A stretch of DNA of 64,000 nt. Origin: Paramyrothecium sp. XJ0827. Taxonomy: Eukaryota; Ascomycota; Sordariomycetes; Hypocreales; Stachybotryaceae. Both the position numbers and the translations under genes were made by a program. Position 1 is the stretch's first letter. Each line of letters starts with the position of its first letter. Location of the stretch: positions 1,178,001 through 1,242,000 of the forward strand of contig JAJFPB010000001.1 in the NCBI GenBank assembly GCA_020881915.1. Direction: 5' to 3'. This document shows, piece by piece, positions 4,272-64,000 of the stretch. A model generated the notes under the pieces. That model was given only the letters and a program-made list of their open reading frames with translations. It searched no databases and had not been told where the DNA came from.

Positions 4272-5128
4272 AAGTTTTAAAACCATCATGATTTTAAAAT
4301 GTATTAGTAAATAGCAATGACGCTTAATTATGTGCTAGGCTGTCATCCATTGGGCGTTTATAAACTGTTCAACTAATGTTCGCAGGCGTTTACAGTACGT
4401 AGGCCAATCCGCTTATGTAGCTCCTTAACCATGAACAAAGCACCACAATTAACTCGGACACGCATTCAAGGCTAAAGGCATTATTAATAATAATATAGCT
4501 ATGTTCATGGACGTGGTCTATAAGCCCTCATTATTTGTTATCAAGCGGGGTCTGCTATTGCTACCCGGCAAATCTTTTGTTAGCGCTGACTTCAAAGATA
4601 ATAGACTAGTTCAGCTTTAAACCGAATGGTTTATAACTCATTGGTGCACTGGTCCCTAGAAGTCATAAGCTTTGATTTTGAGAGACTTAAGCTAGGCCAG
4701 TGGAATAGCTTGCAATGTTGTCTAAGCGAAGCTCGGTGGAATTGGGAAGAATTGAGGGTTGTTTTAATATGCTATAATTAGTATGAGACATGATTGGAGT
4801 GTGATGCACTGGCACGTACTGTCTTAAAAAGGAATGTGCTGTCTTGTTTGTGACTGGGTTTTATCTCGAGAACTTATAAGAACTGGGGTAATGATTGAGC
4901 GTCTTTTATGTTCTCATTCCTAGCGTCATCAAAGACGTCAAAGAATAGGCTGCGTTGTTCAAAACATTTCGTGTTACCTAAAACGCTCGAACACCTTGAA
5001 AAGGTCCCTGGTCCAGGCAACCATTGGCTGCTCATTCAATAAAGACACGGCACTCTCTCGTCTAGACGCTTGAAATTGGCACAGATTATGGCACCCGGTA
5101 TTTTGCCTGTTTCTCGATATAAATCAAT
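3854..5128. other. AT-rich non-coding stretch with a poly(A) tract
   Basis: No gene is supported. The frame at 3995-4291 ends in the poly(A) tract and looks like chance. The region is AT-rich and lacks recognisable repeat ends. Confidence 0.5.
4240..4266. repeat. 27-nt poly(A) tract
   Basis: An uninterrupted run of 27 adenines lies in AT-rich DNA. It may be simple-sequence slippage or the old 3' tail of a retroposed element; no target-site duplication was identified. Confidence 0.8.
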
Positions 5129-6400
5129 ATGCAGGCAATGAGAGTCATCTTATCACGATTGCTCCGGGTGCAAAACGTACGTCCATCACTCCTGGCACGC
5201 CTGCTTAGCGAAACCATTCTTCGTATCATCGAGCTTCTTCAAGAGATGAGCCCAGAAAGCGTAGATTGTGTTGCGTCTTTGAGCCCGTATCTCGAGAAAG
5301 TGGCACGATATGCAAATATCCGTCACCTCGTTGTCCACTTGACTAAGGTAGATGGCGGAAAGGCACTCGAGGCGGTCGCTCGCCGCGGCTTGTAAAGAGC
5401 CGTTCGCAGTCTAGAGGTGTACGGCGGTCGTCATCGCAATTGGTGATGGGACGATGTATTATCTCCACTGCAAAGACTCTTACCTGAATTGACGGGCCGT
5501 CGTGACCTTCACTGGAAGGACGTTGATATTCCAGAGGCTGTCGTCGATCTGCTGAGGTCTTGTTACGCACACAACTCCATCTGAACATTTCCTACAAACG
5601 TCTCCGTGGTGACCTCAAAAGCAGACGATTAGGCGACAGCTTGATGGGGAGCCCAAGCCTTGCGTCACTACGCGTTCGCGTACCGTACCTGAACACTCCA
5701 TCGTGTGCCGACATCGTGTCTTCTCAAAGAGTCATCCTATTAACCTGTCCCAATTTGCGCAATCTGCGACTCCACATCGCCAAGCATACGGGTGGGTGTC
5801 TCGTCTTTCCCCAGGACACGGGATACGTATGCGTTGAATTAAGAAGGATGAGCGGCCCGCCGCCGCTGAGGGAACTGGAAGTAACCGCGTACCCCTGGGG
5901 CAGCGGGAGTGAAGACTTGTCGCAACAAGACCCATCGTCAGTAAGATATCCTTGCAAAGGTTTCGAGATCCGCCACTGGGCTAACACGTTCGATTGCTCT
6001 CGCCTTGCGTAGATTGCGCGAGGCCTATGCTGATATCGCATCGCAAATCTCGTCAAATGCTAAAGTATATCTAGTTTGGAAAGTGCAGACATGACAACAT
6101 CGATTGCATGGCCTCCTTCTTCAGGACCGTACCAACCATGCTCGAGTCAATTAGCATGCCACGATTAGCCTGTGCCGGGTTGCGGGGGTTTCGCGCCACA
6201 GCGAAAGCTTGCAGAGGCTGAAGGTTCACCAAGATGAATCAGTAACATGGACTCGAGGAATTCCTACTGCAGTTGAGTTGTTTGGGCTCCGTGAGGGGCT
6301 TCCACACCTGCTCAAACTCGGCGTCGACACTGATGAGAATGAGCCTTCGAGAGAGGAGGATTTCTAACACGAACGAGACAGGGTGAGCAACCCAACAGCG
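5129..6400 (+). pseudogene. degenerate F-box/leucine-rich-type protein pseudogene
   Basis: The first frame reads like the N-terminus of the large fungal F-box family (a Leu-rich ARLLSETILRIIELLQEMSP segment). It then hits an in-frame TAA at 5393-5395, continues in the same frame (RSLEVYGGRHRNW), hits a TGA, continues again (LSPLQRLLPELTGRRDLHWK), and stops near 5577. Similar Leu-rich text resumes one frame over at about 5580-6012, with LTCPNLRNLRLHI and PPLRELEVTAY, typical of the repeat-like C-terminal part. Further fragments reach about 6370 (EEFLLQLSCLGS). With at least two nonsense codons and one frame change, the locus is almost certainly not functional. The exact ends are uncertain. Confidence 0.55.
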
Positions 6401-8130
6401 TTAGTGGTTCCGAGCTCGTATTGCCCGAGCACAACAGACCCAGCCATTATCTCGCTGAAGCAATTTTGATCACGCGGGACGCAAGTCCTTGAACTTTGCA
6501 GGAGCCATAACCTTGTATGGTGCAGACCTGAGGAGGGGGCAGCTGAAAGGCATTAGTCTGCGTGTAATGATATTGCGGAACTTTTGCAGATTCACACTTC
6601 TCCAGGGTGGGATGCATGTCAGCGGCTACACAGGGAGTACAACCGGAATCCGCGGCTCACATACCCGGAACAGAACATGCAGCTAGAGAGGGTCTTTCTT
6701 AGTACTCAAGTAAATACCTTGACGGCTAGTTTTTGAGCAGAGTTCCAAGCACTATCCACTCAGTGCTGAGCTGTTCTTTGTCCGATCAAAGTACGGCGGC
6801 TAAGCGGTCATTTTATGAAGCATATGATATTGAAATCTCATGGTACCTTCCTATTTGGCACTGGACTGCCTGATTAATGTATGCCTATTCAGTTTCCTTC
6901 ACTACCTATACCCAGCTCGGATCCATTTATCTCGGATACATTATTCAATGAGCCGTGGGGCTTCGTTCTTGGATCTAGACTATTTTGTAAGCCTGACGCG
7001 AGGAGCATTTGTTATTGAGGGGTAAATAAGCAAGGCTGAAGGCATCTAGGGAATAGTCATACGGAGTGGGTAACACCAGGGGCGGCATTGCACCCAATAT
7101 AGAGAAGCGTCCAGACGCTTACAGGGGCAAGACTTTGCAATGAAGGAATCGACGGGCCAGCCAACACGAGATTCGTATGAGCCGCGGCCCCTGCTGCCCA
7201 TGTACCCAAGAGAATTGTGGATTCGTAGGCTGCCATCGACAAGTTTCTTGAAGAGAATAATATGGTCACCAGCGCCAGCGCTGCGGTGCCCCCTCCGAGC
7301 GTAGGGCGGCATAAGGCGTTCGGGAGTAGCAACGGGCATGGGCCAGTAGTGAGAATAAGGGAAACGGCAGCGAGAAAAGGATAACATTGGGGTAAGGGGT
7401 GAGAAAATTAACGTGAGTATTGGAGTTGAACTTCCTGATGGTTGGAGTTCCGGCTGCAATTCTAGCTTACATTCCGGCTGGGCCCTGCATTGCCAAGTGT
7501 TGGTCAGACGTAGCCTGATTGTGGCGCCCATGTGGGGTTTGCAGCCGCATGCAGGACAGCAACTTTCTTTGCAACTGATTAATTGGCTCGCCAAATACCA
7601 TGGCTCACTAGTAGGTGATGCAGGACGCTGCTACCGTACCGATTCGGAGACTTTAGACAGGTGGGTCTAGATCATAACCCTCTTATCATTGTAGTTTGGC
7701 ACCCTGAATATATACTACGTTTTCGGGTCGACAAAAGTCTCATTGGTCGATCGTCATCGCTTTGTCAAGTCCCACCGGCCAGTTGATTAGTCGAATCGGG
7801 ACAGTATTTTGCGATCTCTTGTGCCATCCCTGCCCATGGCCGCCCCACGGGACGAAATGACCCATGCTGTCTGGTTGAAAAATGTTCTAGTTCTACAATC
7901 CATGTGATTCGTTGTGCATGAATCATCGGATCTCACGACGCTATGCTTGGAGTCCATAATGCTGGTAGGAGAGGAAGGGGGTGGCGAATATCTCCTCTGG
8001 TATAGCAGAGGGCGGCTTCTCGGGACGTAGTCCACAACTAACACCAAACGGGCAGCATTGGCCGAGCTTATTGTTTAATCACTTTGCGTGTTAGTAGCTT
8101 ATCTCCAGTGAGGACGAGAGTGAGATTTGC
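6401..8130. other. non-coding stretch, nothing supported
   Basis: Several open frames occur (for example 7046-7594 on the minus strand), but none shows a domain, signal peptide or splice-consistent extension. They are not annotated as genes. Confidence 0.45.
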
Positions 8131-8137
8131 TATAAAG
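8131..8137 (+). promoter_or_regulatory. TATA box of the 217-aa secreted protein gene
   Basis: TATAAAG lies 118 bp upstream of the ATG at 8249 and is followed by a CT-rich and CA-rich leader. Confidence 0.5.
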
Positions 8138-8248
8138 CCCATAGCATCTTCTCCCTCTTCCAGTACGAGAATTCAGCACCACTCACCCCAGCTTAAGTCT
8201 TTCTATCACTAAGTCACCTCTCCCCTCATCAGTCGAGTCCTCTTCACC

Positions 8249-8902
8249 ATGACGACCCTTAAGCAAGCCCTCATCGCCATAGCCGGCTCCGCCGTCAGTG
8301 TCCTTGCCAATCCGTTGTCCGCCGATACCACCCCAACGTCTATTATTGGTGCTCCAGAGTCTGCTGTGACCGAGATTTCCAAGCCGCTTGAAGGAAAGGA
8401 GCTTAAGGACTTTTTGTCCAACGGGCAGAATATCCCCGAGGGCGCCATTGATATCACCAACACGACACTGGCCGCCGAGTTAATTGCGTTCCAAAGATCT
8501 CACGATGACGGCACTGGCTTGACTAAGAGAGGCGCCTGTGATCAAGGCGCTTGCCCTGATTTTCATGCCGGCTTCGACTTTTACCAACAGCATTGGGTCA
8601 TACCCCAGTGGGGCACAAACCAGCCTCCTTTGGTTTACTGGGCGTACTTTGGCCGGTGGAATGACTGTGGCCAGTGCGACAAGATTCCCATCACTAGCGA
8701 TGGCTGTTTCAGCTTCACTGGATGCGGTCGCCCACAACACATCTGTGTTGACACCCATCATGGTAGGGCCCACCGCATCTGGGCTGATAACGGCGACAAG
8801 CGATGCTGGAAGACCAAGCTGGACTTCTACGGCAACTGTGGCCCAAACTTGGTAGCTGCTAGGATTTTCCACCCGGACTACGAGGTGCCATGCGATTGGT
8901 AG
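8249..8902 (+). CDS. secreted cysteine-rich protein with Kex2 propeptide, 217 aa
   Basis: An intronless frame with ATG in good context (CACCATGACG). Residues 1-20 form a signal peptide ending SVLA before NPLSAD. Residues 21-94 are an acidic pro-region closed by a Lys-Arg Kex2-type site (LTKR, 93-94). The mature part, about 123 residues, starts GACDQGACPD. It is rich in Trp, Tyr, His and Gly and has ten cysteines (CDQGAC, CGQC and single cysteines to the C-terminus), enough for five disulfides. I recognise no catalytic motif. The compact, disulfide-rich, aromatic mature domain fits a secreted effector or host-interaction protein. It repeats the architecture of the gene at 3366, though the mature sequences do not resemble each other. 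Function unknown. Confidence 0.75.
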   Translation: MTTLKQALIAIAGSAVSVLANPLSADTTPTSIIGAPESAVTEISKPLEGKELKDFLSNGQNIPEGAIDITNTTLAAELIAFQRSHDDGTGLTKRGACDQGACPDFHAGFDFYQQHWVIPQWGTNQPPLVYWAYFGRWNDCGQCDKIPITSDGCFSFTGCGRPQHICVDTHHGRAHRIWADNGDKRCWKTKLDFYGNCGPNLVAARIFHPDYEVPCDW

Positions 8903-22112: not shown

Positions 22113-23333
22113 TTACGAAAGGTGAAGCGTGTTCGTCCCGTTACCGAAAACATTGGATACAATGTTCTTTCCATTCACAGGACCATGATACACTGCACCG
22201 GTAATCGTCGCGGCCGGGGTCTCGGCATCCGCCTGCATGCTCGCCGTCGGACGGCCCTCCGTGCGCGGATACCTCTCCACAATCGCCCTTGTCACACACG
22301 CCGCCATCGCAGAGGAAAAGTTCTGCCATGCCTTATTCTTGTGGCTGTCCGCATAGTCCGACACCCCTTTGACAACCAAGCATGGCAGCTCGTTCCAGAT
22401 ACCCGCGCCCTCCATCTCAACACCGAGCAGCGGCGAGCCAGTGCGTTTGAGCAGGTACTCGGCCAACGTTTCGCGCTTCTCACTAGACATGAGGACATTG
22501 TCAGCCGACGAGAAGCAGCCAAAGAACACCTCGCGCTGCTGGGCGTCATCAATGCTGCCCGCACTTTCGAGTGCGAGCAGCCGTTTGTGGCGGTTCCGCC
22601 GCTTGACGAGACGCGAAACATCGCATTTGAGATCGATGCACGAAGCCTCGCGAGCCTCCTCACAGACAGGATCCGAGTACTGAAGGCAGCTGTCACACTG
22701 GGAGCACGAAGCTGAGGATTGATGCTTATGGCGGTAGTTCGCCTCGAATAAACGGTCCTGGCTTGCACCGGGATAGGCGTAAGCTGCTCTTGGCTCGCCA
22801 TCGCGGCCTTTGCCTTGGATAATCTTCAGCAACTCTTTGGCGCGTTCCTCGAGATCGTCACGTTCCGAATCTGTCTCCAAAGTGGCAATCAGGTGCGCAA
22901 CACCTTTCGGGGGTCCCCCGAGGGCTGAGTCTAGGCGTTCCGCAATCTCGAAGTGGTCAGGAAATTGCCTACCCAGATCGGTTTGCACCACATGCTTACC
23001 AACGACAACGTCGCCCAGTAGTAGCTCATGGAATTTGTTGGGAACGCCTCCGCATACCCCGGTGAGAATCACGAGAGACAAGTTTGGAAAACTTGATCGC
23101 AGGCTTGCCGCGGTGCCTGCGGCATTGATTTTCCCCAGCCTTGGAATCCGAACTAGAACGACTGGATGATCGCCCATCCGTCCGATTGTGTAAACATTCG
23201 GGTCTCCTGGAGCGCGTGCATGGGATCTTGTCTTGTCCTTGTCTTCGAGGAGAATCTCGATGGCATTGTACTCGCACGCCACCGTGCACAAGATTGCCAA
23301 TTCGATTTGGTCCGGGCTGGCAGTGGAGGTCAT
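22113..23333 (-). CDS. nucleoside phosphorylase-domain protein with C-terminal amyloid-like motif (putative NLR effector), 406 aa
   Basis: Intronless from ATG 23333; the frame stays open upstream to 23558, but that part is not domain-like. Residues 1-360 form a PNP_UDP domain of the type found at the front of fungal NLRs. It has ILCTVACEYNAIEILLED at the start, YTIGRMGDHPVVLVRIP, LTGVCGGVP, the Cys-rich middle (SCSQCDSCLQ), GVEMEGAGIW and KGVSDYADSHKNKAWQ. It carries no NB, ankyrin or TPR part, so it is a free-standing effector domain. A Pro/Ala/Thr-rich linker leads to the final 25 residues, which contain YHGPVNGKNIVSNVFGNG. That motif closely matches the N-terminus of the divergent NLR gene. 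The domain would cleave or transfer nucleosides in the cytosol. Regulation by recruitment to the NLR is inferred. Confidence 0.85.
   Translation of the reverse strand: MTSTASPDQIELAILCTVACEYNAIEILLEDKDKTRSHARAPGDPNVYTIGRMGDHPVVLVRIPRLGKINAAGTAASLRSSFPNLSLVILTGVCGGVPNKFHELLLGDVVVGKHVVQTDLGRQFPDHFEIAERLDSALGGPPKGVAHLIATLETDSERDDLEERAKELLKIIQGKGRDGEPRAAYAYPGASQDRLFEANYRHKHQSSASCSQCDSCLQYSDPVCEEAREASCIDLKCDVSRLVKRRNRHKRLLALESAGSIDDAQQREVFFGCFSSADNVLMSSEKRETLAEYLLKRTGSPLLGVEMEGAGIWNELPCLVVKGVSDYADSHKNKAWQNFSSAMAACVTRAIVERYPRTEGRPTASMQADAETPAATITGAVYHGPVNGKNIVSNVFGNGTNTLHLS
22116..22190 (-). other. C-terminal amyloid-signalling-like motif of the phosphorylase-domain protein
   Basis: Residues 382-406. 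Gly/Asn/Val-rich and almost free of charge, with YHGPVNGKNIVSNVFGNG at its core. It lies behind a flexible linker, as amyloid motifs of fungal effectors do. It pairs with the N-terminal motif of the adjacent NLR. Confidence 0.65.
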
Positions 23334-23698
23334 TTTGAAGCACTGAACGCAATATTTAGAGCTGAGACTACACATAAATTCGCAGATGCTTTTTGTTAAG
23401 TGCGCCTGCTGCAATGACGGCCTTATATGATAAGGGTTTGCCCTCAGGATCAGGCTGAGGCTGAGACTGAAAGTGCAGAAAGTTGCATAGCCGATGGTAC
23501 TCACGTGGAAGGCTCTCTGATGTTGCATTAGGCATCCGTGATCTTTCCCCGCAAACAAATGCCTCTATCTCTTTGTAGGCTAATTTACACCTTACAAGCT
23601 GCTGAAGTGCGACTGGAAGGCGTGTGCTCGGCGGTTGCTCATGCCTCCATGCGTGCGGCTTCAATCCGCCTCAAGCACTTCCCTTCAACCCTGGCAGA
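23334..23698. promoter_or_regulatory. shared divergent promoter region of the effector/NLR pair
   Basis: Only 365 bp separate the two start codons of the head-to-head genes, so their promoters must overlap. No individual element is certain. Co-regulation is inferred from the arrangement. Confidence 0.5.
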
Positions 23699-26417
23699 AT
23701 GAATGGCACGGAATACCGCGGGCCGGTTAACGGTCACAACGTAGTTTCTGCAGCAGTTGGCGCCGGCGGGATCATCAACAACAATTTCAGCGCGCTGTCA
23801 ACAGCTCATCGCGCCCCACAATGGATTCCTCTTCCCCAGAATGAGGGTATTGTGTCCCGCCCCGATCTTGTTGCGCAGATCAATAGTCTCCTCCCAGACG
23901 CGGGTGGTGGCCAGACTGCAGCATTGTATGGCCTCGGTGGTTCAGGGTGAGTCCCTCATCGCTTGGATTCGAACTTTTCTAGCGCGATTGTTGCTGAATA
24001 GATTCCCCAGGAAGACACAACTGGCGCTCGATTACGCATACCGGCGGAGCAAAGATAAATCTTGTGCCGTGTTTTGGGTACATGCTGAGGACGAAGTGAC
24101 ATTCACACGGGATTACCTGGAAATTGGTAAACTCCTCGAGCTGAAGGGCGAGAATCTAGCCCCGGACGATCTACTAAGTGCTGTACGGAACGGCATCCAG
24201 AAGCAAACTCAGTGGGTGTTAATTGTTGATAACGCTGATAATTTGGGATATTTTGGTGTGGGAAATACCGTTGAAGAGACAACCGAGGCTATGGACAAGA
24301 TGTCTCTTGGTAGAAAACCAACACTTCAGAGGACCAAGCCCGCGCTATTCCCAAAATCAAAGCCTGAGACCTTGCCAGGAAGATTGTCCACCTCGAAACG
24401 AATGGAATCCACCACTAAGCACATGACAGCTCAGAATGCGGTGCTAATCACTCCCAAGAGGCTTGACAAATACATTCCCACTGGTCCTCAAGGCACAGTT
24501 CTGTGGACGACCCGTGACGAGGACATTATTGTGAATCTAGTCGATGCGCATCGAGGGGTCGAAGTATCCCATATGAAAGAGGAGGAAGCGAGGCAACTTC
24601 TCACGAGAACAAAAATAAGGCGTACTGGCAGCGAGGACGCAATCGAAGATATCGATGCGCTGCTCAAGGAACTTCAATGGCTCCCTTTGGCCATCTACCA
24701 GGCTGCCTCTTATATGCGCGAAACAGACACGAGCGTCAAAGACTACCTGGCCATGCTGTCGGGGGGAGAGCAACGGTGGAGCGTGCTCAGCGAGACGCAC
24801 CATGACCGGCACCGGCCAGAAGGCGCATCAAATTGTGTTCTGGCGACTTGGGACATTTCCATCAAACGCATCGAGGGGATAGATCCGCTCGCGCACAAGA
24901 TCCTGCACATCATCGCATTCTTTGAGAATCAGAACATCCCATTCGATTTGATCCAAGCCGCAGCAATGTATACTCAAGCCGTTGATGGAGAAAAAAGGAC
25001 AGTCCAGCATAGCGCAGCAAAGGTGGGAAGGGCAGTCAGACGGCTCATGAACTTCTCATTCCTCTCGAAGCAAACCAATGTGCTGCGATACGAGATGCAC
25101 AAGTTGGTGCAGGAAGGCGTGCGATACAGACTTTACGGAATGGCGACAGAGACTGCAACACAGCTAGAGGGGCCAAGGGCGGCGCTGGCATTGAATAAAG
25201 GGCCGAAGCCAACGACAAGAATAAGGCCGGTAACGCTCAGGGGCGAACAGGGGCGAAGAGCCTCGCGACAAAGCCCAGTGCGACCGACAGCTGACGAGCA
25301 GCAGCAGAAACTTGGGCAATACTTTGCAAGGGCCGCCTTGTCCATAATCGAGGAGAAATTCCCAGAGGAACCAGAATACGGAACATGGGATGAGTGCGAG
25401 AAGTACCTACCGCATGCGATGCAAGTCACAAATGACGTCGACGTGTGCCAGCAGAACGTCCGCCTAGGTCTCTTGCTTCAAAAAATCTCGGGGTACCTGC
25501 ACGAGCGCCAAAGGTGGAGAGAAAAAGAGTCTGTGGATCTTAAGTCGCTGTCATTACTGCAGGAAAAGCTTGGTGAATCCCATGCTCATGTCCTTAAGAG
25601 CCAGGAAAATTTGGCTTCCACGTACTGGGGCCTTTGCCGTTATAAAGATGCTGAAAGTATTGATCTCAAGGTCCTCCGAAAGCTGAAATGTTTCTTGGGG
25701 GACACGCACCCCAGTACACTTGCAAACATATATAATCTTGCATTGACATATTTTAAGCAGGGTCGGTACCTCGATGCAGAGAACCTGGCCACTCAAGTGT
25801 ATCAAGCGTACAAGCAGAAATTTGGGGAGAGATCGCGAGACACCATGGACTCCCAACGCTTGCTTGCTCACACATTCCTCCACCAAAGCCGATTAGAAGA
25901 CGCAGAGACCATTCTTGGGAAATTATTGCTCATATCCAATGAAGCTCTAGGAGAAACACATCCAGACACATTAGAATCGCAAATCTTGCTGGCGGTGGTA
26001 TATCGAGATCAAGGCCGACTTAGTGAGGCCGAAGAACTCCAGACAAAAGTAATGGAACACCTAAAAGATCGCCAAGAGGAGTTGGCCCGTGTTTTTGACT
26101 TCACACGAGCGAATCTCGCATTTACCTATTACAAGCAGTGTCGGTATCAGGAAGCAGAAATACTAGAGCGCCAAGTGCTCGAGTACCGATGTAAAGTTCT
26201 AGGAGATAACGATTCCAAGACTATTACTACAAAGAATAACATGGCATGCACTTACCATGCTCAAGGAAAAGTTGAGCTTGCAATCGCCATGATGGAAGAG
26301 GTGGTAGCTCAGAGGTTTCAAGTACTAGGAGCCGACCACCCTTACACGGTGGCTTCACAGGAAGGACTTGAGTGCTGGAAGAGCTCCCTGGAACAGTCTG
26401 AAAACCAAGAACCATGA
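23699..26417 (+). CDS. NLR (STAND) receptor: amyloid-like motif, NB-ARC, TPR repeats, 884 aa
   Basis: Exons 23699-23946 and 24011-26417; the 64-nt intron splits the P-loop, as it does in the second NLR here. Residues 6-31 are a Gly/Asn/Val-rich motif (YRGPVNGHNVVSAAVGAG). A linker, WIPLPQNEGIVSRPD, leads to the NB-ARC: Walker A LYGLGGSGKTQLAL (residues 76-89), Walker B WVLIVDNAD, an unusual Lys/Ser/Thr-rich insertion of roughly 70 residues, GTVLWTTRDED, and LPLAIYQAASYM. A winged-helix-like region follows. From about residue 600 to the end there are six or more TPR units of about 42 residues (recurring LGETHPDTLESQ, LAxxYxxQGRxxEAE). This is a cytosolic self/non-self or stress sensor; its ligand is unknown. 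The effector is probably the divergent phosphorylase gene. Confidence 0.9.
23714..23791 (+). other. N-terminal amyloid-signalling-like motif of the NLR
   Basis: Residues 6-31, YRGPVNGHNVVSAAVGAG followed by an Asn-rich end. It precedes the NB-ARC directly in place of a folded effector domain, which is the position of amyloid motifs in fungal NLRs. It matches the C-terminus of the neighbouring phosphorylase-domain protein. Confidence 0.65.
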
Positions 26418-32788: not shown

Positions 32789-35425
32789 TTACTTCCCATC
32801 GAGCTCCCCGCTTGGCTCCGAATCTGACCCCTCTTCGCTCAGGTTCGGCGAGCTCACTGTGGAGTTCAGACGTTCCAGCAACGACTCTATCATCCCAATC
32901 ATCTTTTGGCTGTATGAGCTACTCTTCCTCGGCCCGTCCCGCGCCCCGTCCAAGGTACGCCCGCACAAGTCCCTCGCTTCCGATATCCTACCCTCCTTCC
33001 TCAGCAATTCGGCGAGGTTATGTGCAGTGACCAGTGCGCCGCCATGGTCCACCCCGTACAGCTCGTGCCACGTTTTCAGGTTGCGCTCGTACAGCTCAAA
33101 CGCCTCTGGTATCGTCTCTTCCTCGTACGTGAGGACCAGAGCCAGGTTGCACTCCTGACTCAGCACATCGGGATGCGTAGGTCCGAAAAGCTCCTTCTTG
33201 TATTCGTAGACTTCACGCAGGAGCGGTCGCGCTTCTGAGATTTTGTTCTGTTCTTCGAGAACGTCCGCGAGGTGGGCGATGCAGTTCAATGTGTCATTGT
33301 GTTTGCGTCCCAGTACGCGCTCGCTCAAAGCCAAAGCTTCGCGCTGCATCGCTTCGGCTCCGGCATAGTCTCCGGTGACGCCGATAGCCGTTGCAAGATC
33401 GCTCAGAGCGTCAATTGTTCTTGGATTCTCGTGGCCCAGGATCTCCCGTCGCATCTCCACAAGCTTCGTGAGCAGAGACACAGCCTCATGCCCATCGCCG
33501 CTGTGTATGAGCGTCCATCCATACAGTCCGGTGCTTTCCATTGTCTCCATATCACTCTCTCCAAGATGCTTTTGACAAATGGTCATCGATTTCTCAAATC
33601 GGACTTGTGCTTCTTTGAAGTCTCCATACCAGATGTATTTGCCCGTAGAGCGTAGGAGTTTTGCCTGGGCCATGTCTGTGTCCTGGTTGGCGGCTTTGAA
33701 CTTGTGCTGTAGCATAACTTCTGCGTGTGGCAGCAGCGACTGGCAAACCCGAAAATCTTCTTCGGTGTGGCTTGAGTGTGCGTTAGGAAATAGCTTCTCG
33801 AGAGCCCGCAAAGCTTGAAGCGCCCAGGCATCCAGGTCAGAAGTCTCCCGCTCTAGCCACCATTTCGTGGCCAATTGAACAAGACGATGTGTGCTGAAGG
33901 TGCTATTGGCGTCATCCACGTCGACGAATGAGAATGCCTTCAGAATGGCAACAGCATCGTCGAAGTCGAAGTCGTCTTCGTCTTCCAACTGCAAGAGGTA
34001 TCCAGGAATGCTTTGGTGTTGAAAGAAAGCTATCAAGCAAAGCATGTCTGCGGCCCTGGGGTTTGACTGACGAATAGATCCAAAGGAAATCATCCATGTT
34101 TTTGCCACTGACTCGAGGGAGCTCGCTTGGCGCCCATGATCAGAAAATTCGTAACTCAGCAGTTTCGCCCTGACAGTATCGTCTTTCCGATACAGCTCAA
34201 GGTATTGCGAGATTGACTTTCGTCTTTTCACCATAAAAGCAACAGCCTGATTTATCGCCAGAGGGATGTCTTCCAAAACATTGAGGAGCTCAAGCACCAA
34301 TGGATCGTTGACTGCAGTTGGCAAACGCCTTTCAATCAGCCTAATGCCCTCTTCCTTCTCCATCCCATGGACCAAAATTGGATTGGATGGAGTAGCGACA
34401 TCGAAAGCGACGTCGCGGTTCCTTGTCGTGAACAAAAGGCAGCCGTGTTGGCATCTCGGGATACACTCGGAAGGCGTCTTGCCAATCCTCATATGTTGCT
34501 TGAAGAATGCATCTTCGTCATCAATATTGTCAATGACCATGAGCCACGGGCTCTCGTGCTGGGTTTCCAGCCAGTTCTTCAGCCGCATAGCTGCGTCGGA
34601 AGTTCCGTTGTCGTGAGTGGCCAGTCCGCACTCCACCGCGATGTGGTTGTACGATTCTTCGAACCGGGCAACGGTGGCAGCGTTCACCCAGAATATCGAG
34701 CATGCATAGTCGACCTTGCGCTTCCGATGGCAATATTCAAGGGCAACTTGGGACTTGCTGATCAATCTTCAGTCAAATGAAACGGACTACGGGATACGAC
34801 GCACAACTCACCCTATGCCACCTAACCCGTACAGTGCCGCCTTGGGTTGGGTTCCCTTTGGGACTGAAAAAGCCGTCTCCATCTCGGCGAAGATGCCATC
34901 TCGGCCTATGAAAGACGGGTTTCTGTCGAATGGTACCAACCACAATGGTGTGCGTCCTTGCGGGGGCTGCTGTGGCTCGACTCTGAGGTTGTGGAAATTG
35001 TCAATGACCTGGTGAAAGGTCAAGGTTGAGACATAACCTTGCAATGATTCAGCAACCTGGTCGACCTTTTTGTCGTAATGCAGGCTTTTGAGAGCCTTTA
35101 CTTTGCGATCCCACGAGGACGAGTCTGCTGCGGGCAGGGCCTTCTCCAGAATGTCTTGCAGCAACTCTATGTCGGCCATGCAGCCGTTCACGACGGGTAC
35201 GAGGGCATCTTGGGTTTCCCGGTCAACCTTTCCAGCTGCGATGCTCTTCTCGATTCTCCTTAAGCCATCGATTATCATGGGGAGAACCGTCTTTATCTGC
35301 CGGAACGCTTTGGGCGCACTGTCGACGGCACCGCTAAAGTCGGCGAGGCGCTGCGTGACTTCTGCGCCAAAGTGAATAAGCTGCAGAATCGAGGCGGCCA
35401 AGCCGATGACGGAGACGGGGTCCAT
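32789..35425 (-). CDS. second NLR: HeLo/SesA-like N-terminus, NB-ARC, TPR repeats, 860 aa
   Basis: Exons 34812-35425 and 32789-34757 with a 54-nt intron again inside the P-loop. Residues 1-135 form a helical N-terminal domain starting DPVSVIGLAASILQLIHFGA, with the pattern of the HeLo-like/SesA class of fungal STAND proteins. A linker, WLVPFDRNPSFIGRD, leads to the NB-ARC: ALYGLGGIGKSQVALEY (Walker A), SPWLMVIDNIDDED (Walker B), GCLLFTTRNRDV, and LEDIPLAINQAVAFM. Winged-helix-type sequence follows (LCLIAFFQHQSIPGYLL). The last 330 residues hold TPR units of about 42 residues (LGRKHNDTLNCIAHLADVLEEQ and similar), then an acidic Ser/Glu tail. It is expected to be a cytosolic receptor whose own N-terminal domain acts as membrane-targeting or signalling effector. 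The ligand is unknown. Confidence 0.88.
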
Positions 35426-36098
35426 GCCCGGGGTCGTGGTCTGATGGGAGGCTGCCGAGATGCCTTGGGTCTAACAAGACGGAGGAGCATTGCGATCGAC
35501 TGCTCGAAGCGGGGTCTGCCATCTGGGTGATGACGGTGGGGGCAGCTGAGATGCCACAGCCGCGCGAATATTCGGGACATCGTAGGTGGTGTCAGAAGCT
35601 ATTTTCCGGACACCAACTCATTTTGTTTCTTAAACTAGATTCTCCAGACTCATTTTTGGCATTCTAAGTCGTACCGCTGCCAGGGCTCGTGTTGGTCATT
35701 ATAAACAACGGCACAATAAGAGGTGGGTTGAGATAACCGCCTGTGTCAGCAACGCCATTTTCGTCTTCTTGTTGAACATCAGCACGATATCAATGCTTCT
35801 CCATATCATCCATGAGATCTAACCATTGCTTATTTCATTTACGGAGTCATCCTTTGCTGTCAAAGCTTGAATTCTCATTTGGTTTAGCAGGATTATAAAC
35901 CGGGCACTAAAAATGTCAAAATGTCCTGTACAGGGTGCCACTAGCCTCTTCTGTTGGATGCTACCTCGAGCAAAGCTTTGGCTATAAATGCTGCACTGCC
36001 AGTCTCAATCGAATAAATGTCTTCACCGCAATGTTGCAATCAGCGGAGTCGTCACGTATTTCTCAATTCGTCCAATTCTCTACATCCAAACCGCAATT
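35426..36098. other. intergenic, divergent promoters
   Basis: Holds the upstream regions of the second NLR (leftward) and the ACT-domain gene (rightward). Apart from the TATA box at 35983 nothing specific is seen. Confidence 0.5.
35983..35989 (+). promoter_or_regulatory. TATA box of the ACT-domain gene
   Basis: TATAAAT lies 116 bp upstream of the ATG at 36099. Confidence 0.45.
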
Positions 36099-62850: not shown

Positions 62851-64000
62851 TCACCAAGTAAGCTTCCGATCTCTATCGCTGCTTTTTCTAATAAATCGTG
62901 GTGAAAATTCTGGGTCCCATTTGTCCTCTTTCCGAACAGTATGCTCGCCTATGCGGAGAACTTTATGCTTATGGTAAGTTGCTGACGATTTGGAATCATT
63001 CAACCCCCGTACCATTTCTTCCAGGTCGTGCCTCAAGGGATGTGATGGTGTCAATCTGTCGTTACTTCGTTCTAGACCCCGCTTGCTTGCTTCCAATGCC
63101 TTTCCGCGCTCACCTTTAAGAATATAGAGCTGCGACAGTTTCCATAAGCCGTAAATATAGTCAGGATGTCCAGCGCCGCATGATTCTTCCAGCTGGCTTA
63201 TGGTCTTCATTGTTAGTTCCTCCGCCTTGTCCAATCTCCCCTGTCTTGCGTATACGCGGGCAAGTTCTCCGCGTCCCATTAGAACACCAACGTGACCATT
63301 TCCTAGGCTCCGTACGCCGGCCTCAATACCCTCCAGTAGTATTTCCTCGGCCTTATCAAGCTCTCCAGACTCAAGGTAAGTTTTAGAAAGGTAACATAGG
63401 GCCCAAAGTGTCCATGGATGTTCTTTCCCAAAAATTTGACGACGTTGTTCATAAACGTCAGTGACGTATGTTTGAGCTTTTCCAACATTCCCAAGGTCTA
63501 ACAACGCCATGGCCAGATTAGCTTTTGTAGAAAGCGTGTCGGAATGAGTTGGACCAAGTAGTTTTTCCCTTGCTTTTAAGACTTCTTCGTGGATACTTGC
63601 GCTTTCATGAAATCGACGCCAAGCACTGAGGGTTACTCCAAGATTGTCCAAGGCTGCTAAGGTATCAGCATAATTTGGGTGCTCTGAGCCAACTGTTTCC
63701 TTCATGCAGCTTGCGGCGGTCTGTTGTATGTCCAATGCCTCTTGATGCATGCCGTGTAACCAATAAGATCTTCCCAAGTGATTCATGGCTTGAAGCGTCT
63801 TTAGATTGGTGCCGCCCAAAGATTTTGTCCGTCCATGTACGACGGTCCTCTGAAGCTCTATGGCCTTCTCTGGCTGACCTAGGCCCCAGTAGACGCCTGC
63901 CAGACCTAGCATTGCATTTGTGGTCTTTTCGTTTGAGCTCCCCAGTGAGTTTAGAAGAACATCTTTCACTACTTCAAGATGGTCTCGAGCCTTCTCGAAC
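62851..64000 (-). CDS. TPR-repeat C-terminus of a third probable NLR (partial, runs off the window)
   Basis: The frame ends at 62851 and is open through position 64000, so the 5' part lies outside. The 383 or so visible residues hold at least six TPR units of about 42 residues with the TPR_12 pattern of fungal NLRs: LGSSNEKTTNAMLGLAGVYW, VGSEHPNYADTLAALDNLGV, LGPTHSDTLSTKANLAMALL, FGKEHPWTLWALCYLSKTYL, and others. A basic tail follows (ATYHKHKVLRIGEHTVRKED). The repeats are the same type as in the two complete NLRs, so an upstream NB-ARC is expected, although a TPR-only or kinesin-light-chain-like protein is possible. The repeats would sense a ligand in the cytosol. Confidence 0.75.
   Translation of the reverse strand, partial: FEKARDHLEVVKDVLLNSLGSSNEKTTNAMLGLAGVYWGLGQPEKAIELQRTVVHGRTKSLGGTNLKTLQAMNHLGRSYWLHGMHQEALDIQQTAASCMKETVGSEHPNYADTLAALDNLGVTLSAWRRFHESASIHEEVLKAREKLLGPTHSDTLSTKANLAMALLDLGNVGKAQTYVTDVYEQRRQIFGKEHPWTLWALCYLSKTYLESGELDKAEEILLEGIEAGVRSLGNGHVGVLMGRGELARVYARQGRLDKAEELTMKTISQLEESCGAGHPDYIYGLWKLSQLYILKGERGKALEASKRGLERSNDRLTPSHPLRHDLEEMVRGLNDSKSSATYHKHKVLRIGEHTVRKEDKWDPEFSPRFIRKSSDRDRKLTW

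Follow-up and report, generated by a model that had tools for sequence, protein, structure and literature searches.

The window analyzed here is the 64,000-nucleotide stretch C7:1178001-1242000 of the 51.8 Mb, 15-contig assembly of Paramyrothecium sp. XJ0827. It contains a gene for a stand-alone enzyme of the phosphorylase superfamily and a gene for a NOD-like receptor (NLR), which are arranged head to head, their start codons 365 bp apart (Table 1). A motif of about 28 residues is common to the C-terminus of the enzyme and the N-terminus of the NLR. A first-pass annotation of this DNA had described the same layout, with which our coordinates agree, and had proposed that the NLR controls the enzyme through an amyloid fold of the motif. 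From sequence comparisons, we consider it likely that the two genes are a receptor/effector pair of the fungal amyloid-signaling kind.

Table 1. Positions of the enzyme and NLR genes and their parts within the window.
Feature	Position	Strand	Basis
Putative effector gene, stand-alone PNP_UDP_1 / MTAN-like nucleosidase, 406 aa, single exon	22113..23333	-	
Effector-side motif, residues 379-406, GAVYHGPVNGKNIVSNVFGNGTNTLHLS	22116..22199	-	Alignment, motif model, pLDDT
Span of catalytic-type residues E21 (23271-23273), E308 (22410-22412), D326 (22356-22358)	22356..23273	-	
Intergenic region, 365 bp, between divergent start codons; presumed shared promoter region	23334..23698	.	
NLR gene, 884 aa, one intron	23699..26417	+	
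NLR exon 1: motif, linker, first part of P-loop	23699..23946	+	
Receptor-side motif, residues 3-31, GTEYRGPVNGHNVVSAAVGAGGIINNNFS	23705..23791	+	Effector-trained model matches residues 7-31
NLR intron, GTGAGT...AG, splits P-loop after GLGGSG	23947..24010	+	Acceptor comparison
NLR exon 2: NB-ARC/AAA core, DUF7779, tetratricopeptide repeats	24011..26417	+	Pfam

The shared terminal motif and the two proteins

A local alignment of the last 40 residues of the enzyme with the first 40 of the NLR scored 64 (BLOSUM62, 11/1), with 11 identities over 23 positions. This score was reached by 0/20,000 shuffle pairs (shuffle maximum 54), which rules out chance similarity of the termini. The likeness that the first-pass annotation had seen on opposite protein ends (GPVNG, an N, VS and spaced glycines) is therefore real. 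When 12,506 pairs of 40-residue segments were compared in 5-residue steps over both proteins, the best eight were all at these termini. The same codon is used in 1/11 identical motif residues and the motif DNA is identical at 35/69 positions, which rules out that the motif arose by recent DNA duplication or gene conversion. Since 10/11 identical residues have different codons, the similarity is maintained in the protein sequence and does not reflect a fresh copy of DNA. A DNA pattern for a 7-codon core of the motif occurs four times in the assembly, in both window genes and at L003 and L004; the same pattern read backwards, as a control, occurs twice. Neither L003 (motif-model E 5.5) nor L004 (E 0.87) contains a frame for an enzyme or an NLR, and we took both as chance matches. 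Residues 361-406 of the enzyme have a block-mean predicted local distance difference test (pLDDT) score of 39-46, i.e., the tail is predicted to be disordered. Amyloid-signaling pairs are recognized by a similar short motif on the N-terminus of an NLR and the C-terminus of a neighboring effector, and this is the arrangement found here.

The enzyme matches the phosphorylase-superfamily model PF01048 at 50.5 bits (cut-off 25.1). E21, E308 and D326 align with a Glu, a Glu and an Asp of the methylthioadenosine/S-adenosylhomocysteine (MTA/SAH) nucleosidases 4jos and 1zos, and are kept in 50, 50 and 47 of 50 aligned rows, the window enzyme included. We take the aligned residues to be the catalytic positions Glu12, Glu174 and Asp197 of the E. 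coli enzyme (positions 12 and 197 also appear in the PDB titles). With the Pfam match, the MTAN fold and these residues, the protein falls in the PNP_UDP_1 / MTAN group, and from its sequence it looks like an MTAN-like enzyme with catalytic-type residues intact. The first-pass annotation called it a stand-alone nucleoside phosphorylase. The superfamily and the stand-alone form are both correct, but the look of an MTAN-type nucleosidase makes hydrolysis likelier than phosphorolysis. Four further residues, H202, H204, C213 and C237, are invariant in 50/50 aligned rows and lie in a stretch outside the MTAN alignments to 4jos and 1zos; they form a possible metal site.

The NLR has the architecture of a fungal NLR (STAND) protein, i.e., an NB-ARC or NACHT core followed by C-terminal repeats. 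Pfam matches in exon 2 are PF00931 (30.7 bits, cut-off 23.5), PF13401, PF25000, PF13374 (E 1.2e-39) and PF13424 (E 7.4e-39), with families of the tetratricopeptide repeat (TPR) type among them. The intron, which is absent from the account in the first-pass annotation, falls inside the P-loop between GLGGSG and KT. Six acceptors were compared, and an intron end at 24010 yields GGSGKTQ and the open 884-aa frame.

Occurrence of the motif in other fungi and elsewhere in the genome

A protein search with the enzyme found 1730 relatives; of the best 120, 34 are matched by a motif model. This number is a description and not a frequency, as the model was largely trained on the same rows, and it overstates how common the motif is because the query carries the motif and only the best 120 of 1730 were used. 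Bearers among these 120 include species of Colletotrichum, Fusarium, Trichoderma, Neonectria, Verticillium and Neurospora. The motif ends at most one residue from the C-terminus in 28/35 enzymes, including the window enzyme, for which the motif span was assigned manually. The consensus over 30 rows is xVFxGPISGxNVVxGxxxTGGTxNxxFxx. Charged residues (DEKR) make up 4.2% of the motif versus 22.1% of the preceding 25 residues, V/I/F/Y/W/T make up 41.7% versus 16.6%, and glutamine makes up 1.7% of the motif. At the other end of the protein, 11 of the best 120 relatives have sigma-like G-x-G-x-Q repeats by pattern (P0038, P0042, P0049, P0050, P0062, P0074, P0079, P0096, P0099, P0101 and P0110).

A model built on enzymes recognizes the receptor. 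This effector-only model was made from 29 enzyme C-termini of other fungi, excluding both window proteins and the near-ortholog of the enzyme in Paramyrothecium foliicola, and was run against 152 proteins. It finds residues 7-31 of the window NLR at E 1e-5 and the P. foliicola NLR P0121 at E 7e-4 (single-domain E 1.4e-3). The window enzyme itself is found at E 9e-4, and the P. foliicola enzyme P0001 at E 1.4e-3. The best hit to reversed sequences has an E of 0.51. Beyond P0121 and P0126 (E 0.1), no other of the 30 listed NLR relatives reaches E 1. Profiles gave the same link: with hhalign, the effector profile (window enzyme included) matched four receptor motifs (window NLR excluded) over 27 columns with a probability of 95.8 and an E of 6.7e-9. 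The receptor relatives are modular as well: among the N-termini of the 30 listed NLR relatives, 16 are HRAM-like by pattern and three have SesA (PF17107); others begin with enzyme-like or hydrolase-like sequence, as judged by eye.

The closest listed relatives of both proteins are from P. foliicola (Stachybotryaceae, Hypocreales), with 75% identity for the enzyme and 78% over residues 1-120 for the NLR. Both genes are present in that species with the motif, in P0001 and P0121. The first-pass annotation had named motif conservation in related species as a point on which its proposal should be judged, and conservation is what we found: identity to P. foliicola is 24/28 (86%) in the effector motif and 21/29 in the receptor motif. 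In the enzyme, the linker next to the motif is 48% identical (11/23) and the enzyme domain is identical at 269/355 positions. Recurrence of the pair in other genomes, which that annotation had also raised, is suggested for P. foliicola, where P0001 and P0121 are on contigs listed with one length; a third species with the receptor-side motif was found neither among the listed NLR relatives nor by a composite-query search.

The genome of XJ0827 contains 17 matches to PF01048 at 16 places, 15 of them outside the window, and the motif was sought in the stop-to-stop frames of the 10-kb neighborhoods of these 15. Such scans miss motifs cut by introns, and the genome counts are lower bounds. A search with the first 478 residues of the window NLR gave 62 matches. 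Blended motif queries varied in sensitivity: one found a single place and missed both window copies, and another found four places including both. Among the NLRs, a paralog on contig C14 (L020), with 50% and 57% identity to the window NLR over two stretches, bears the motif (motif-model E 0.0015), and one on C12 (L021) has a weak match (E 0.47). At L010 (G000:C13:3886700-3896699; 4757-8871 +), an enzyme, a motif-like linker (E 0.018), a NACHT-type NTPase and ankyrin repeats apparently form one gene, the enzyme half of the long frame being judged by eye. A short frame covered by L023 and L027 (L027 4637-5101 +) has a divergent phosphorylase-superfamily-like end, recognized by eye with no Pfam match, followed by a copy of the motif (E 9.7e-5, blended query). 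This frame is possibly a relic. It adjoins a frame at 5432-6235 + that looks by eye like a HET domain, and the frames upstream look broken.

A second head-to-head PNP_UDP/NLR-TPR pair lies on contig C8 (L013, G000:C8:5858000-5867999; enzyme 4604-5953 +, NLR 1946 to about 4500 -). Both of its partners carry an HRAM-like motif (FG.D..INQGDV) that is unrelated to the window motif. We compared effector and receptor termini from these loci in a 4 x 5 table, scored with 5000 shuffles. The cognate scores are 64 for the window pair and 56 for the C8 pair, each reached by 0/5000 shuffles, whereas the crossed scores between the two pairs are 19 (1437/5000) and 19 (3797/5000). L020 scores 61 against the window effector, nearly equal to the window pair. 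L022 (G000:C8:4184500-4194499; 4743-5150 -), an NLR of the same type with an HRAM-like N-terminus, scores 51 against the C8 effector. The possible relic, on C14, scores 64 against the window NLR and 54 against L020, and the C13 fusion (L010) scores 42 against L021 (5/5000) and 27 against the window NLR (678/5000).

A tree was also built from 103 enzyme domains, trimmed of their tails. The sample left out 18/120 relatives of at least 480 aa, added the window and L013 enzymes, and dropped one of 104 rows that lacked the cutting pattern. The window enzyme groups with P0001 and P0002, which bear the motif, and with P0022 (Shimodaira-Hasegawa-like approximate likelihood ratio test support of 96). 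P0022 continues from the enzyme directly into an NLR start of the same kind as that of the window, and its model stops just past GLGGSG, the site of the window intron. Its junction aligns with the linker and P-loop of the window NLR at a score of 113 (0/2000 shuffles). Similar enzyme/NLR junctions are found in P0006, P0011, P0059, P0073 and P0077 (scores 48 to 91, each 0/2000). Enzyme and this type of receptor are thus joined either in one chain or by matched tags. The motif is scattered across the enzyme tree, with 11 state changes for motif versus other and 23 over all labels, counts that are inflated because incomplete gene models were labeled as motif-free. The models of P0006, P0011, P0022, P0059 and P0073 end directly after the P-loop glycines, where exon 1 of the window NLR splices, which suggests that this intron position is conserved across these NLRs.

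Relation to described amyloid motifs

The first-pass annotation could not assign the motif to HRAM, sigma or PP with certainty, and by the Pfam, pattern and hhalign comparisons made here it is none of the three. HRAM, the HET-s-related amyloid family, is described as a 21-residue pattern with K/R preferred at position 15, hydrophobic residues at 16 and 18, and G19 (PMC4518210). Against 17 HRAM-like sequences, hhalign gave a probability of 0.3 for the effector motif and 0.1 for the receptor motif. The pattern [KR]hxhG[DN] is absent from 33/33 motif rows, and is insensitive, finding 6/17 HRAM-like sequences. Because of this, and because Pfam missed the HRAM-like controls, the verdict on HRAM rests on the profile comparison. 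The sigma motif (PF17106, NACHT_sigma; about 40 residues with repeated submotifs) matches 0/30 motif rows at E up to 10, and neither the start of the window NLR nor the tail of the window enzyme; P0065, the positive control, was matched at E 2.2e-20. Against 11 sigma-like sequences, the hhalign probability is at most 3.8. The PP motif is described as a pseudo-palindrome around a conserved Q (PMC5485727). The consensus here has no Q at any majority position, though a Q occurs somewhere in 17/33 rows. No Pfam PP model is among the matches to the motif rows, in a search that also missed the HRAM-like controls. A weak Pfam match to PATR (E 0.029) in 1/30 motif rows is chance-like.

Two more recently described motifs fit poorly. 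None of the 33 motif rows matches more than 3/7 fixed positions of the PUASM pattern (PUASM 1), given as FxGxGxQxxGxGxF (PMC9815663), or more than 4/13 of the GDQN pattern, given as NxxxGxQYxxxGxGDQNxVSxxxxQxN (PMC12261475). The account that describes PUASM reports a further motif, PF01048_015, from four gene pairs and with no effector type other than PNP_UDP (PMC9815663); it is apparently the PUASM 2 of PMC12261475. We consider the window motif somewhat likelier than not to be PF01048_015. The first-pass annotation suggested that the motif may belong to a less described family, and that family is quite possibly one that already has a name. If the two are the same, the published description rests on four gene pairs, to which a consensus and sequences from named fungi are added here. 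If PF01048_015 proves to be different, the window motif would be a new motif family.

A candidate signaling pair and its alternatives

Stand-alone PNP_UDP effectors paired with NLRs via HRAM3-type or PUASM motifs are described in PMC9815663. The kind of pair is thus known, and the idea is less new than the first-pass annotation implied. A literature search joining purine phosphorylase with amyloid signaling returned no paper. In the account of the published pairs, one PNP_UDP-effector motif formed foci in Podospora and is termed prion-forming (PMC9815663). The PUASM pairs, from Pezizomycotina, resemble the window pair in having a stand-alone PNP_UDP protein with a C-terminal motif that matches the N-terminus of a genomically close NLR. 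The PUASM NLRs are annotated as NACHT or NACHT-WD40 (PMC9815663), whereas the window NLR is NB-ARC-TPR. The published HRAM3/NLR12 PNP_UDP-NLR pairs (PMC9815663) and the C8 pair share with the window pair the enzyme superfamily and a single copy of the motif, but their motif is unrelated. The C8 pair is also like the window pair in its head-to-head layout and its NB/TPR receptor type. In the NWD2/HET-S system of Podospora anserina, the N-terminal motif of an NLR likewise matches the C-terminal motif of an effector encoded next door. HET-S forms pores and has two motif repeats, in contrast to the nucleosidase-type enzyme and single copy of the window effector.

The mechanism that we infer would run as follows. 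The TPR repeats would sense a ligand, and the NB-ARC module would oligomerize, as is established for NLRs, and so gather copies of the N-terminal motif. The gathered motifs would nucleate a beta-arch amyloid, and this fold would template the corresponding C-terminal motif of the neighboring enzyme, which is otherwise disordered. Clustering of the MTAN-like domain would switch the enzyme on, and the activated enzyme would cleave purine nucleosides or nucleotides at their glycosidic bond, with ATP as a candidate substrate. The loss of nucleosides or nucleotides would starve or kill the cell. Cleavage of nucleosides or nucleotides, perhaps ATP, is the best reading of the output. The analogy to fungal amyloid signaling made in the first-pass annotation is well supported, at the level of sequence, by the matching termini, the layout, the conservation of the effector motif, its spread over enzymes and the parallel HRAM-like pair; the amyloid step itself would follow by analogy.

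All of the sequence evidence for pairing would fit equally well if the motif were a homotypic docking tag, i.e., a soluble beta-hairpin or strand-swap pair that recruits the enzyme stoichiometrically with no amyloid templating. The low glutamine content of the motif is in keeping with such a tag. We think it unlikely, as the motif resembles published amyloid motifs in its low charge, its spaced glycines, its beta-branched residues and its terminal position, the effector C-terminus is predicted to be disordered, and the HRAM-like pair in the same genome has the same layout with a motif of the HET-s-related amyloid family (PMC4518210). Less credible again is that the two motifs are relics of an ancestral enzyme-motif-NLR fusion that split, both halves keeping a copy of the linker that has no present signaling function. 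Fused forms do exist, P0022 and others, and L010 has a motif-like segment between enzyme and NTPase in this genome. Against a relic, the effector motif has been kept far better than the linker beside it while nearly all compared codons changed, and the motif recurs at enzyme C-termini across the PNP tree, even allowing for the inflated count of changes. Fission may be the origin of the split pair, but it leaves the retention of the motif unexplained. That the motif works while the two neighbors act separately, the effector answering another motif-bearing NLR, is very improbable. L020 does fit the window effector nearly as well as the window NLR does; against this stand the head-to-head linkage of the window genes and the presence of both genes again in P. 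foliicola, on contigs listed at one size.

Several observations weigh against the receptor/effector reading that we prefer. The amyloid character of the motif is read from its sequence and composition, and the second half of the motif in the window effector is divergent (the motif is found at E 9e-4 by the effector-only model). Outside this genome, the receptor-side motif is found in one species, P. foliicola (P0121, P0126), and the composite-query protein search for more gave P0126 only, which was already known. Adjacency of the two P. foliicola genes is suggested solely by an equality, P0001 and P0121 each being listed on a contig of 3,631,708 bases. The receptor motif, at 21/29, is barely above the NB region of the NLR (197/290) in identity to P. 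foliicola and exceeds only the short linker (4/9). Finally, the PF01048 match nearest to L020 on its contig is about 9.8 kb past the end of the gene. Pairing is thus not one to one. By its frames, that match looks like part of an enzyme/NTPase/ankyrin gene, and a motif-model scan of the L020 and L028 stretches found no partner.

More tentatively, and with confidence somewhat short of even, we propose that xVFxGPISGxNVVxGxxxTGGTxNxxFxx defines a distinct fungal amyloid-signaling family, carried by many nucleosidase-type enzymes on their C-terminus, which in this genome would form a second insulated channel beside the HRAM-like pair, with enzyme, receptor and gene layout of the same kind in both; the window NLR, L020 and perhaps L021 may converge on one effector. 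If the receptor/effector reading holds, the two head-to-head pairs of this genome, with the same enzyme superfamily and different motifs, would offer a compact test of how parallel amyloid channels stay specific. The two apparently insulated channels in one genome give the locus its special value. A nucleoside- or nucleotide-destroying enzyme, and not a membrane-piercing protein, would end the amyloid relay, which would also link fungal NLRs with the PNP-type immune effectors known from bacteria. Those bacterial PNP-domain effectors are activated by another route than the fungal pair. They are alike in carrying PF01048, and are ATP-cleaving according to reviews (PMC10197012, PMC12881547).

The window holds other receptor-like genes. 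A further NLR at 32792-35470 (- strand) has a SesA N-terminal domain (PF17107), an NB-like region and TPR repeats. A TPR-rich frame at 62854-63999 (- strand), which runs off the end of the window, is possibly another NLR.

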